From: Halobacillus halophilus DSM 2266
GTDB taxonomy: Bacteria > Bacillota > Bacilli > Bacillales > Halobacillaceae
Length of the DNA: 64,000 nt
Reading direction: 5' to 3'
Assembly (NCBI RefSeq): GCF_000284515.1
Contig: NC_017668.1
Span: forward strand, 2,852,001 to 2,916,000
The notes beneath the pieces were generated by a model. It was given only the letters and a program-made list of their open reading frames with translations, searched no databases and had not been told where the DNA came from. Shown piece by piece: positions 49,655 through 53,983 of this stretch (position 1 is its first letter; every line of letters begins with the position of its first letter). Position numbers and translations under genes: made by a program.

Positions 49655-50032
49655 ATGAGAAAGTACATATATTTAGGTATCGCTTGCGGGGGCGGAACGG
49701 GCGCAAGTTTACGGTATATTATTTCGAATCTATTTCCTTCCCATGGAGGCTTTCCTTACGGGACATTCATAGTAAATATGCTCGGTTGTTTTCTTTTAAG
49801 CTTTATGTATCAATTTTTTTCAAAATTTTTCACAAAATCTCGTGTTTTACAGAAGACTTTGACGACCGGATTTATTGGATCTTTTACTACATTTTCAGCC
49901 TTCACTTCTGAATTTGTGCAAATTATTTTTACGAACACTTTTTTAGCATTATTCTACATAATGGGGACATTTCTGCTTGGAGGTATTATGACCATTCTTG
50001 GGTCCCAGTGGGGAAAGAAGTGGTTTATATGA
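49655..50032 (+). CDS. crcB1: Fluoride exporter subunit CrcB/FluC (first copy)
   Basis: A 125-residue CrcB/FluC protein with four hydrophobic helices. It shows the channel motifs GGGTGASLRYIIS near the N terminus, GTFIVNMLGCFLLSF and TTFSAFTSEF, including the fluoride-contacting Phe/Thr stretch. Small fluoride channels work as dual-topology dimers; here two unlike genes overlap and probably form a heterodimer. No fluoride riboswitch was recognised upstream. The ATG at 49655 follows TTAGGAG. Confidence 0.92.
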   Translation: MRKYIYLGIACGGGTGASLRYIISNLFPSHGGFPYGTFIVNMLGCFLLSFMYQFFSKFFTKSRVLQKTLTTGFIGSFTTFSAFTSEFVQIIFTNTFLALFYIMGTFLLGGIMTILGSQWGKKWFI

Positions 50033-50379
50033 GTATTTTGCTCGTGTTTTTGGGTGGAATGATTGGTGCCGTAGCTCGATTTGAAGTAAGTCATCTCTTG
50101 AACGGTAAAAGTGATTATCCTTTAGGTACAGCAGCAGCTAATATTTCAGGAGGATTATTACTGGGGATTCTTATTCGCTTACAGGAAATAGTTGGTCTGG
50201 AAGATTGGCTTTGGCTGCTATTGGCTGCTGGATTCTGCGGAGGTTATACTACCTATTCTACTTTCAGCTACGAGGTTCTTCATTTAATTGAACAAGGCCA
50301 ATGGAAGAAAGGACTAGTTTATGCTGGAACCTCGCTTATATTAACGGTGGCTGGCCTCTTTTTCATTCTCTATATCTGA
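50029..50379 (+). CDS. crcB2: Fluoride exporter subunit CrcB/FluC (second copy)
   Basis: A 116-residue CrcB paralogue with four helices and the motifs GGMIGAVARFEVSH, GTAAANISGGLLLG and GGYTTYSTFSYEV. The ATG at 50029 overlaps the TGA of crcB1 (ATGA), so translation is coupled. The GGYTTYSTFSYE motif is the classic pore box; in crcB1 the corresponding stretch is GSFTTFSAFTSE. The Asn in AANISGG matches the conserved Asn in other FluC proteins. Confidence 0.92.
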   Translation: MSILLVFLGGMIGAVARFEVSHLLNGKSDYPLGTAAANISGGLLLGILIRLQEIVGLEDWLWLLLAAGFCGGYTTYSTFSYEVLHLIEQGQWKKGLVYAGTSLILTVAGLFFILYI

Positions 50380-50481: not shown

Positions 50482-50519
50482 AACCCCTCGATTTCTCTTA
50501 TTTTAGAAATCGAGGGGTT
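50482..50519. terminator. Terminator between crcB2 and the STAS gene
   Basis: A perfect 15-bp stem AACCCCTCGATTTCT with its partner arm and an 8-nt loop, directly after the STAS stop. T's on the minus strand are weak. Confidence 0.7.
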
Positions 50520-51283
50520 CATTGTGCACAGTATTTAGCTACAGCCTGCTGCAGGGAGTGCATATAATTTATTTCCAGCGGGAGCTTTAAGTCATTCAAC
50601 TGTTTTGCCTGGCGGGGCTGGATGCCTATCATAATTATTTCAGCTCCCATATAAAACATAGACTTCATCATATCTGTTAGAACATGGAGCCCATCCCTGT
50701 TAAATTCACCTACTCCTGTGAAATCAAATAGCAGTCGATCAATCTCTTCCCTCTGCGAATACTTCAGTAAACTATCTTCTACAGCTTGCATTTTCTCTGT
50801 GGTAATATCTCCAAACAAAGGGATCATTGCTGTGTCCGACGAAAGCACAATAAATGGAGCAGATAAACGATTGCTTTGCTCTATCGCTTCTTCTAATTTC
50901 TCTTTCTCTTCAAGAAGTTCAAAATTTGTGTCATTTAAACGACTTCGAAGCTGGGTTAATGTATGGGTAACCTTAGAGAGTCGCTCGTCTTTCACGTGTA
51001 ATAGAACTTCAGCATATAAATCATTCTCCCATGAGACGTACATATCAGCCGTTTTTATAGAATCCTGCTTATTCAAAGGTTTTAAATGCACTTCCAGGGA
51101 GGCTTTGTGAACCTCTGGTTTCACCGTTTCTTTTATTTTTATGAGGCTCTCTTCATCAAAAATATCAAGCAAATGTTCTTTTATCCCGTGCAAATCACAA
51201 GCTTCTTTAGAATAAGCATATATATGGAAGTTTTTATTGATACGATAGTAAGGCAGGGGAAAAACGCGTTCAACTTGTTTCAT
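50519..51283 (-). CDS. RsbR-like STAS-domain protein with PAS-like N terminus
   Basis: A 254-residue protein. Residues 10-110 look like a PAS-type sensor fold (YYRINKNFHIYAYSKEACDL), followed by a coiled coil at about 105-140. A C-terminal STAS domain of the RsbR type follows: SAPFIVLSSDTAMIPLFGDI, then DFTGVGEFNRDGLHVLTDMM and GAEIIMIGIQPRQAKQL. RsbR proteins form stressosomes with RsbS and RsbT and release sigma-B control; a phospho-acceptor Thr may be in DFTG. Its start overlaps the B12 gene by 14 bases. It is the last gene of a four-gene operon. Confidence 0.82.
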   Translation of the reverse strand: MKQVERVFPLPYYRINKNFHIYAYSKEACDLHGIKEHLLDIFDEESLIKIKETVKPEVHKASLEVHLKPLNKQDSIKTADMYVSWENDLYAEVLLHVKDERLSKVTHTLTQLRSRLNDTNFELLEEKEKLEEAIEQSNRLSAPFIVLSSDTAMIPLFGDITTEKMQAVEDSLLKYSQREEIDRLLFDFTGVGEFNRDGLHVLTDMMKSMFYMGAEIIMIGIQPRQAKQLNDLKLPLEINYMHSLQQAVAKYCAQ

Positions 51284-51929
51284 TTATTGCGCCTTCCCTT
51301 CCTTCATTAAACCACTGATATAAATGATTTAAATCTTTAACCACCATAACCTGTGCGGATTCGAATTCATCCAACTGAAACTTCTTAGCCATACGCCCGC
51401 CAATCATAACGAGAGGCTTCCACTCCAATTCCATGAAACGGTGGATGACTTTTTTCAGCACCGGCAGACGATAGGACAAAGCAGCTGATAATCCAATGAC
51501 ATCAGGACGGAATTTTTCAATTTGACTCATAGAATGCTCCATTGATAAATTCGGACCAAGGTACCTTACTCTCCACCCTTGCTCTTTAAAGGTGTCCGCA
51601 ACCATCTTCAGACCAATGTAATGCTGCTCGTCTTCAACTCCGAACAACAGAGCTTTATAATTCTTTTGGTGCTTGCCTCTAATCGGTTTGAGTTCGGACT
51701 CTAATCTGGACAAAGAAAAATCACAAATAGCCGTTGCCAGGTGCTCGTCAGCTACAGTTATTTTGTTTTGTTCCCATAGTTCTCCAATATAATACATAGC
51801 TGGGGTAATGATTTCTTCATAAAGGAACGCTTTCGAATGAACCTTCATGAGCTCTTCCATATAGTCTAACGCCCCATCTTCATCCCCACTTAAGAAGTAC
51901 TGGGCTAGTTGTTTATGTTGTACATTCAC
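51270..51929 (-). CDS. Cobalamin-binding protein with CarH-type photosensor signature
   Basis: A 219-residue, two-domain B12 protein. The N-terminal helical cap (residues 1-85) contains W52 followed after nine residues by E62-H63 (GELWEQNKITVADEH), the W-x9-EH signature of adenosylcobalamin light sensors of the CarH group. The C-terminal Rossmann-like domain has E-x-H-x2-G (E101-H103-G106) for the lower axial ligand, then GLSAALS and IGGRM. Unlike CarH, no DNA-binding MerR domain is attached, so output must pass through a partner, probably the STAS protein next to it. The start is a GTG at 51929. Confidence 0.85.
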   Translation of the reverse strand: MNVQHKQLAQYFLSGDEDGALDYMEELMKVHSKAFLYEEIITPAMYYIGELWEQNKITVADEHLATAICDFSLSRLESELKPIRGKHQKNYKALLFGVEDEQHYIGLKMVADTFKEQGWRVRYLGPNLSMEHSMSQIEKFRPDVIGLSAALSYRLPVLKKVIHRFMELEWKPLVMIGGRMAKKFQLDEFESAQVMVVKDLNHLYQWFNEGREGAINETS

Positions 51930-51943
51930 ACCTGTTCACCTCT

Positions 51944-52309
51944 TTATTCTGAACGAGTACGTAAATAATCTAAGGCTTGCTGCAAAAACTCTATATATAC
52001 TTTCTTTTCAGTTGAATCCTCGAGATCTGAATGTTCCAACAATCTTAGTAACCGTTCGTAGTTATCAATGATTAAAGCCGTACCTACGTCTCTTGCCGTC
52101 AATACAGTATTCAGCCAATCTGTATAATCTATGAAAAATGTAACACTACCCATTTCATAAGCGGTCTTTAAATGGTCAAGGTGATGATAATTGTCCTCTT
52201 CCGTTCGATCTCTACCATGCTGACCAAATTTCTCCCAAAGATATGGATATTCATGATAAATCTCTGTAACTACCTGGTTTACCAAAAACTCTTGCTCCAC
52301 TTTCTTCAC
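51944..52309 (-). CDS. Small helical protein of the B12/STAS operon, function unknown
   Basis: A 121-residue, fully helical protein without membrane segments. The middle (EEDNYHHLDHLKTAYEMGS) is rich in His and acidic residues, and TVLTARDVGTALIIDNYERLLRLLE resembles helices of globin-like sensor domains at the N terminus of RsbR relatives. That likeness is weak. The start is GTG at 52309, overlapping the stop of the ABM gene (GTGA). Its place between the ABM gene and the B12 gene suggests a part of the same sensing device. Confidence 0.65.
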   Translation of the reverse strand: MKKVEQEFLVNQVVTEIYHEYPYLWEKFGQHGRDRTEEDNYHHLDHLKTAYEMGSVTFFIDYTDWLNTVLTARDVGTALIIDNYERLLRLLEHSDLEDSTEKKVYIEFLQQALDYLRTRSE

Positions 52310-52611
52310 TGAGCGACCACCGCATATTTGGAAACTTTCGGTACAATGCCCTGTAATTCCTGGTCTGGATATTGGCGTTCCAACTCATGAATTTTCTTAA
52401 ATTGGTCGCTCCTTGCCCATTTCAAGTACGCACTTTTAGATTCCCATTCCAAATGTACAGTTAACTCTCCAGGTTTTCGCTCTTTTTGAAGTAGTTGAAA
52501 AGAAATAAACCCCTCGGCCTGATCAACCAGACGAGATCGCTTTATATATATATTAATTAACTCCTCAGCTTTATGCTCTGGCACTTCTACAGTCGAGTCA
52601 ACTACAAACAT
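52306..52611 (-). CDS. ABM-family monooxygenase-like protein (HmoA/HmoB-like)
   Basis: A 101-residue ferredoxin-like-fold protein of the antibiotic biosynthesis monooxygenase group, which includes heme-degrading HmoA/IsdG. The fold is visible as FVVDSTVEVPEHKAEELI and then EGFISFQLLQKE, with HLEWESKSAYLKWARSDQFKKIH as the C-terminal block. The usual heme-ligand His is not clear, so heme degradation is not proven. It is first in the four-gene operon, overlapping the next gene by 4 bases. Confidence 0.75.
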   Translation of the reverse strand: MFVVDSTVEVPEHKAEELINIYIKRSRLVDQAEGFISFQLLQKERKPGELTVHLEWESKSAYLKWARSDQFKKIHELERQYPDQELQGIVPKVSKYAVVAQ

Positions 52612-53173: not shown

Positions 53174-53983
53174 TTAGTATTTGATGACTTCATCGATCAC
53201 ATGCATTTCTTCATGATCGAGCAGGTTTTTGTTAACCATATCTTCAGCTTCTTTGTTCATATTATCTTGTAGGTCTTTAAGTTCTTCTTTATCACCGACA
53301 AGATAAAATCTTTCCCATTCGTATTTCTTAGCCAGCTTATCAATCTTAGGAGCAACGCTCTTATACCAACGGTAACGGTTATGCTCAAAGCGTTCTTTAT
53401 ACTCATCTCCCTGGGAAGATTTTGCTCCGCCGGATCCCATAGATGGCTGGGCACGGTGAGGACCCTGGTGTTGTCTCCAGTCTTCTGTATTCAAATCAAG
53501 TTCAAAGATTTGAGTATCATTCAACATGCCTAGTTCGGCATCAATAACTTTAATTTGTTGTTTTTGCGTTAATACAATTCCCGTTTTAGGGAAGGATTGA
53601 CGCATTTCTTTTAGTTGATCGAGTACAGGAGTTTCCTCCCAATAAAATTCCGTTTTAACAGGCATTTGGAAGCGTTCGGCAAACCAGACAGTATCATCCG
53701 CTGTAGCGAACAGAACCACACTTTTGGCAAAGTGCTGTTCGTTTTCCTCAATGAACTGTTCTACTTTTTCCTTCACAGCCCAATAATTTCGTTTTTCCTC
53801 TGAATCTCCATCTTCCTGAAGATAAGATTCAAAGTTATTTAATCCATTTTTCAAGTGTATCTTCCATTCCCCGCCTTGTTGCTCCGGGTCAGAAGGGTCG
53901 GTGTTTAAATACATTGAAAATACTTTTTGTGGTTTCTCTAAATGAATTTGCTCTAATTTCTTAATTTCTTTGTTTAAATCCAT
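53174..53983 (-). CDS. VLRF1 / bacterial aeRF1-like protein
   Basis: A 269-residue protein of the bacterial archaeo-eukaryotic release factor-like (baeRF) group. The N domain shows VFSMYLNTDPSDPEQQGGEW; the middle carries a Gly/Ser/Gln loop, PSMGSGGAKSSQGDEYKER, where aeRF1 proteins place GGQ; and the C-terminal half has the helical HNRYRWYKSVAPKIDKLA block. Such proteins are thought to bind ribosomes and may rescue or silence them. No canonical GGQ is present, so peptide release is doubtful. Single gene with its own terminator. Confidence 0.72.
   Translation of the reverse strand: MDLNKEIKKLEQIHLEKPQKVFSMYLNTDPSDPEQQGGEWKIHLKNGLNNFESYLQEDGDSEEKRNYWAVKEKVEQFIEENEQHFAKSVVLFATADDTVWFAERFQMPVKTEFYWEETPVLDQLKEMRQSFPKTGIVLTQKQQIKVIDAELGMLNDTQIFELDLNTEDWRQHQGPHRAQPSMGSGGAKSSQGDEYKERFEHNRYRWYKSVAPKIDKLAKKYEWERFYLVGDKEELKDLQDNMNKEAEDMVNKNLLDHEEMHVIDEVIKY

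Follow-up and report, generated by a model that had tools for sequence, protein, structure and literature searches.

Photocobilins, characterised in 2024, are light-active proteins in which a B12-binding domain and a bilin-binding globin are joined. In the report on them (PMC10979010), sensing by a photoglobin together with a B12 domain is already proposed, and SasPcob appears as a stand-alone sensor that acts on a cyclase in trans, with STAS and SpoIIE-type proteins among the predicted partners. In a second report (PMC10151467), BBAG-2 globins cluster with B12-binding proteins and pre-PcyA, and BBAG-2 binds biliverdin. Among photosensors of other build, CarH is a MerR-B12 light-dependent repressor, and YtvA (PDB 2mwg) is a LOV-STAS protein that feeds blue light into sigma-B. 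Here we analyse a four-gene operon of Halobacillus halophilus DSM 2266, located in a stretch of 64,000 nucleotides (contig NC_017668.1, positions 2,852,001 to 2,916,000 of the forward strand; hereafter the window) of a 4.17 Mb assembly, with Halobacillus as its nearest relatives among the named genomes. Judged from its sequence, the operon is reasonably likely to encode a light sensor of the photocobilin type whose parts are divided among separate proteins, together with an output protein that would pass light signals to the sigma-B stressosome. Schneider et al. (2022) reportedly named the photoglobin family, noted its coupling to B12 domains in signalling contexts and predicted it to be a light sensor. 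In the literature searched we found no description of an ABM-photoglobin-B12-STAS operon, its ABM link, its PAS partner or its sigma-B wiring in Bacillales; Schneider et al. may already show such operons.

The operon shares with SasPcob and AbDPcob (PDB 8j2w, 8j2x and 8j2y; PMC10979010) the same B12 pocket residues and the globin Asp and Trp at the bilin contacts; as proposed for SasPcob, its sensor would work in trans on partner proteins. Unlike photocobilins, it carries globin and B12 protein as separate genes, an attached ABM protein and a PAS-STAS output. The BBAG-2 clusters resemble it in their separate globin and B12 genes and their tie to bilin making; however, they contain an FDBR reductase or a canonical heme oxygenase, instead of the IsdG-type ABM and PAS-STAS proteins found here. 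The fourth operon protein has the PAS-helix-STAS order and the non-phosphorylatable RsbR-type STAS domain of YtvA, but the chromophores would sit in partner proteins. The B12 protein has the AdoCbl (adenosylcobalamin) pocket Trp, Glu-His and His ligand of CarH and differs from it in lacking a MerR domain and in carrying Glu53 in place of His132.

The photoglobin and the B12-binding protein

From the promoter side, four minus-strand open reading frames encode an ABM protein, a helical protein, a B12-binding protein and a STAS protein (Table 1). The first two overlap by 4 bases, the second and third are 14 bases apart and the last two overlap by 14 bases, exactly as in the original prediction, which was made from the sequence alone. 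In Pfam searches the ABM, STAS and two B12 domains scored above cut-off and no family did so for the helical protein. This protein, previously left unrecognised, is almost certainly a stand-alone bilin-type photoglobin. A profile of 63 relatives run against PDB sequences matched phycocyanin alpha (E 8.5e-4), the bilin domain of SasPcob (8j2x, 8j2w; E 0.003) and AbDPcob (E 0.08), and unrelated chains started at E 0.4 and weaker, among more phycocyanins. The AlphaFold2 model (13 sequences, pLDDT 94.7) has five helices. Phycocyanins and photocobilins were its top Foldseek matches, with a TM score of 0.74 over the query length to both and a probability of 1.00, although E-values were 0.015 or weaker and identity to the photocobilin was 21%. 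Profile, model and structural comparison all indicate a globin fold of the bilin-binding kind. Two relatives also match Pfam Phycobilisome, below its cut-off.

Asp39, which we take to correspond to phycocyanin Asp87, and Trp65 are each invariant in 78 of 78 distinct relatives. The SasPcob numbering was derived from the alignment of the B12 proteins, where its Trp61 is chain position 55. With this offset, Asp39 and Trp65 align with Asp270 and Trp296, both named as bilin contacts of SasPcob (PMC10979010). The window photoglobin lacks the Cys three residues before the Asp that defines the CXRD and CXQD motifs of such globins (PMC10151467) and has Thr36 instead; across the 78 relatives this position is Thr in 47, Cys in 29 and Ala in 2. 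A search of the plasmid collection returned two Skermanella cobalamin-dependent proteins at 25%. At three loci (L169, L170 and L182) photoglobin genes have neither an ABM nor a B12 gene nearby, in genomes without a match in the B12 search.

The B12-binding protein carries W52-x9-E62-H63 and E101-x-H103-xx-G106 and has the Pfam domains B12-binding and B12-binding_2 above cut-off with no DNA-binding domain, in agreement with what had been read from the letters. Its top PDB matches are the photocobilin SasPcob (8j2w/8j2x, 57 bits), 8jbs (54 bits) and CarH (36 bits), and it also shows the motif described for photocobilin B12 domains (W-x9-EH plus E/DxH; PMC10979010). Residues Gly49, Trp52, Glu62, His63, His103 and Gly106 are invariant in all of 119 distinct relatives, a set from which the MerR-B12 paralogue of the genome was excluded. 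A CarH-like AdoCbl pocket is supported by these residues, and the protein is probably light-responsive. The assignment to a CarH-like sensor therefore holds for the pocket; the nearest kind is nevertheless the photocobilin and not CarH, because the neighbouring helical protein is a bilin-type photoglobin. A CarH that has lost its DNA-binding domain was rejected as the principal explanation because of this neighbour and because the B12 protein stands nearer to photocobilins. Against the NCBIfam CarH model the protein scores 60.1 bits, with 400 required.

Glu53 occupies the place of CarH His132 in 105 of the 119 relatives (His in one), and we therefore expect no bis-His form in the light. SasPcob likewise has no bis-His state in the light, and its His137 forms a salt bridge to the bilin propionate of the other monomer (PMC10979010). 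A coupling of the equivalent His132 to the presence of a neighbouring photoglobin was considered and gave a mixed picture: among STAS-type rows, His is found in 48 of the 70 whose locus includes photoglobin and in 4 of the 20 whose locus does not, but in none of 5 kinase-type rows that have photoglobin. The genome contains AdoCbl mutase-like genes (L001, L003) and a second B12 sensor of the CarH/LitR type, with a MerR and two B12 domains (L004:1405-2304, C1 at about 2.29 Mb). In the plasmid collection, B12 matches were mostly Thermus CarH annotations.

Fused relatives and gene neighbourhood

When the photoglobin profile was searched across the phylum, 9 of 299 genomes gave matches, seven of them outside the order. 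At six of these seven distant loci a single protein of 358-363 residues carries the photoglobin at its N-terminus and the B12 domain at its C-terminus; at the seventh (L195/L202) a group II intron breaks up the gene, and the B12 piece lies after it. The bilin-contact Asp and Trp are retained in all seven photoglobin alignments. The globin comes first in these fused Bacillota forms and last in SasPcob. Because globin and B12 parts form one polypeptide at six of the seven loci, the window operon is read as a split photocobilin. Contact between its B12 protein and photoglobin is likely. Downstream of the distant genes lie hybrid kinases (L197, L198, L199) and GGDEF proteins (L200, L201). Around the fused genes at L197-L202, a search for the domain of the PAS partner gave no match at E 1 or better, so these outputs are not established as sharing that domain. 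An ABM ortholog (141 bits) lies just upstream of one fused gene (L191/L198). The intron-split gene (L202:3595-6543, G512) matches Rfam group-II D1D4 and contains a maturase frame (Pfam RVT_1 and GIIM).

Closer to the window, the search for the same gene order that had been suggested at the outset recovered it, beyond what chance would give, in 44 of 46 loci (L005-L050, all but L018 and L019; some genomes are present twice, since the two collections overlap). In 397 genomes of the order, the B12 protein was found in 174, photoglobin in 161 and both in 150; the PAS partner, that is the PAS domain protein encoded next to the B12 gene, in 176, with the B12 protein in 170; and RsbS in 310, at differing thresholds (1e-15, 1e-5, 1e-6 and 1e-20). 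Four genomes have the B12 protein without the partner domain and six the partner domain without the B12 protein. RsbS is present in 170 of the 174 B12-positive genomes, and the remaining four all carry the kinase form of the partner.

We also compared 80 B12-centred stretches (L078-L157), hand-picked for spread from the listed B12-match rows and two rows from elsewhere. The PAS partner lies directly downstream of the B12 gene in 75, overlapping it in 65 of these, and is missing in 5. Separation of the B12 gene from its STAS-type partner, which would have told against the original prediction, is thus not what is seen. The partner ends in STAS in 52 stretches (plus one split), is a kinase in 8 and is a short protein without a recognised output in 14. 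Photoglobin adjoins the B12 gene or the PAS partner in 41 stretches; ABM accompanies it in 40 of them, and in 39 of these 40 the two genes overlap or are separated by 1 or 4 bases. This pair lies upstream where the partner is of the STAS form, downstream where it is of the kinase form. A further 20 stretches were selected for a photoglobin or B12 gene standing apart, although one contained neither gene; two of the 20 have PAS-GGDEF partners. Since the partner in other genomes has a histidine kinase or GGDEF domain at its end, input to the stressosome is one of several outputs.

Many independent swaps of output were considered and are unsupported. A quick tree was built from 91 B12 proteins, each a distinct row with a length of 190 residues or more; long branches and one row of odd composition were flagged. 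In it the kinase form makes up a single branch (98), and 7 changes are required for the output labels as a whole. The 14 short partners (L121, L127, L143, L145, L147-L150, L154 and others) have about 180-220 residues, apart from one cut piece of 56, and are possibly an adaptor or decayed form.

Proposed output and bilin supply, and alternative readings

The AlphaFold2 model of the fourth protein, of moderate confidence (pLDDT 76.6, pTM 0.45), shows a PAS domain, a long helix and a STAS domain. Full-length YtvA (2mwg) is its best Foldseek match (E 1.7e-11), the next ones being STAS and PAS structures. The STAS profile matches YtvA, RsbR and RsbS, RsbR chains having E-values of 5e-12 to 8e-10. 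The NCBIfam YtvA model is hit in the STAS part only (63.4 bits; 250 required), and the LOV flavin motif, NCRFLQ, is not seen in the sequence. The RsbR-type label given earlier is borne out for the STAS domain, which scores above cut-off, but not for the part ahead of it, a predicted PAS domain unlike the globin of RsbR (PMC10151467). The window genome encodes RsbR, RsbS, RsbT, RsbU-like, RsbV, RsbW, sigma-B and RsbX-like proteins one after another, names being assigned by inspection and those of U and X by look. Similarity to RsbR and YtvA and this full sigma-B operon make it likely that the operon output enters the stressosome and sigma-B pathway; the predicted route is supported to this extent, although it is not the only one across genomes.

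The ABM protein, an assignment already made from the letters and confirmed by Pfam, matches 8avh, IsdI, IsdG and MhuD in profile searches against PDB, a link to heme-degrading, bilin-making enzymes that had been missed. IsdG-type enzymes use Asn, Trp and His for heme degradation. In 76 distinct rows His75 is invariant, Trp65 is kept in 72 and Ser6, at the place of the IsdG/MhuD Asn, in 73. We regard the chances as even that the protein makes bilin from heme or handles and supplies it.

In the proposed mechanism, His103 of the B12 protein would be the ligand for base-off AdoCbl, and Trp52 and Glu62-His63 would hold its adenosyl group. On illumination the Co-C bond would break and the pocket would change. 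Beside the B12 protein, the photoglobin would carry a linear tetrapyrrole and so widen the response to red light, the bilin being made from heme or handed over by the ABM protein. The B12-photoglobin unit may then signal to the fourth protein by contact with its PAS domain. The signalling helix of this protein and its STAS domain, of the RsbR/YtvA type, would be housed in stressosomes; the release of RsbT, and hence sigma-B activity, would shift.

If this is true, many non-photosynthetic Bacillales carry a green/red light sensor of B12 and bilin that feeds the general stress response by a route other than YtvA, and two non-heme globin lines, those of photoglobin and of the stressosome, are joined in one pathway. 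The operon would also be a source of small, separate components for Firmicutes optogenetics and a test case for the origin of bilin binding in globins. More tentatively, the sensor could supply itself: a non-canonical IsdG-type enzyme might make or deliver an unusual bilin to a photoglobin docked on the AdoCbl protein, and the two-colour unit might drive interchangeable PAS-linked outputs across Bacillales, namely the stressosome and sigma-B in Halobacillus and in the majority of those sampled loci whose output is recognised. Such a system would give sigma-B a second light input, one without flavin, and might mark a step in the history from globin to phycobiliprotein, the covalent-type Cys being present in some relatives and not in others.

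Several observations weigh against the split, light-sensing stressosome input. The partners are not always found together: 24 of the 174 B12-positive genomes lack photoglobin, 11 of the 397 genomes have photoglobin without B12, and 39 of the 80 B12 loci have no photoglobin nearby. In the 20 further stretches, ABM-photoglobin pairs occur without a B12 gene in 11 and photoglobin without ABM or B12 in 3, and ABM is seen at only one of the seven distant loci. The genome counts ignore phylogeny. The B12 genomes and loci without photoglobin would suit a CarH-like photosensor acting alone with the helical and ABM proteins as unrelated passengers, which is close to the original prediction. The photoglobin-B12 fusion at the distant loci, the invariant bilin-pocket residues and the many genomes holding both genes make this highly improbable.

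The second group concerns the chromophores. SignatureFinder lists GxxW, EH, GxxH and GxxxP as elements of light-responsive B12 proteins (PMC11796333). The window protein has the first two and misses the others, with Asp100 for the G of GxxH and Ser129 for the P of GxxxP. All four are found in 38 of the 119 relatives, so this signature would miss most of the family. Heme cleavage by the ABM protein is doubtful because the IsdG Asn is Ser; the protein scores below every NCBIfam equivalog and heme-oxygenase cut-off, and a genome search found no canonical heme oxygenase (PF01126). Bilin supply by the ABM protein is therefore put forward as a proposal. The window genome has three ABM proteins in all, two beyond that of the operon. 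Sensing without light, in which the B12 protein would read AdoCbl supply and the globin a heme breakdown product so that cofactor status sets the stress response, is also compatible with all of the sequence evidence. The two missing signature elements speak for it, as does the ABM protein, through which the globin is linked to heme metabolism. It is nonetheless quite unlikely, given that the W-x9-EH pocket is invariant and that the closest solved relatives are light-active photocobilins (PMC10979010).

The third group concerns the output. The RsbR phosphorylation site Thr205 is Arg in the window STAS domain and variable in 90 relatives, with Thr at this place in 2 rows and at that of Thr171 in 3; the window protein has Thr at the Thr171 place, and the RsbR of the genome keeps both residues. 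Thr171 and Thr205 of RsbR are the sites phosphorylated by RsbT. The four B12 genomes without RsbS belong to one family, and the kinase form also occurs in RsbS-carrying genomes. A light sensor whose PAS-STAS protein works outside stressosomes, on another anti-sigma factor or partner, is in keeping with the missing Thr205, with outputs that vary by genome (STAS, kinase, GGDEF, short proteins without a recognised output) and with the 17 STAS matches of the window genome. We consider it unlikely, since the STAS domain is closest to YtvA, RsbR and RsbS, the STAS-type loci examined sit in RsbS-positive genomes, and YtvA itself acts without RsbT phosphorylation sites.

Positions and neighbouring genes

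Table 1. Operon genes, key residues and the downstream repeat, in window positions.
Feature	Position	Strand	Basis
ABM-fold protein, IsdG/MhuD-like, 101 aa	52306..52611	-	Pfam ABM 58.4 bits; PDB profile matches
Stand-alone photoglobin, 121 aa, five helices, bilin-type globin	51944..52309	-	PDB profile matches, AlphaFold2, Foldseek
Photoglobin Asp39 = SasPcob Asp270 (bilin pyrrole contact)	52193..52195	-	alignment; invariant 78/78 distinct rows
Photoglobin Trp65 = SasPcob Trp296	52115..52117	-	alignment; invariant 78/78
Photoglobin Thr36, place of phycobiliprotein bilin-binding Cys (C-x-x-D)	52202..52204	-	alignment
B12-binding protein, 219 aa, four-helix cap and Rossmann domain	51270..51929	-	Pfam; PDB matches
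B12 protein Trp52, light-sensor pocket (SasPcob Trp61, CarH Trp131)	51774..51776	-	W 119/119
B12 protein Glu62-His63 motif	51741..51746	-	E and H 119/119
B12 protein His103, lower cobalt ligand (SasPcob His108, CarH His177)	51621..51623	-	H 119/119
B12 protein His132 = SasPcob His137	51534..51536	-	alignment; H 56/119, Y 41/119
PAS-helix-STAS protein, 254 aa: PAS ~1-98, helix 100-139, STAS 150-246	50519..51283	-	AlphaFold2, Foldseek, profiles
15-bp perfect inverted repeat directly after STAS stop codon, possible terminator	50482..50519	-	

The inverted repeat was not scored as a terminator by the terminator scan, and a consensus scan for a sigma-A or other promoter of the operon gave no more sites than shuffled sequences (7 vs 7.1). 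Upstream of the operon, a baeRF_family5 protein (Pfam) is encoded at 53174-53983, a position kept in the Halobacillus loci compared. Convergent to it, two tandem plus-strand membrane proteins, presumably CrcB-like, are encoded at 49655-50379 and are also present in some relatives.

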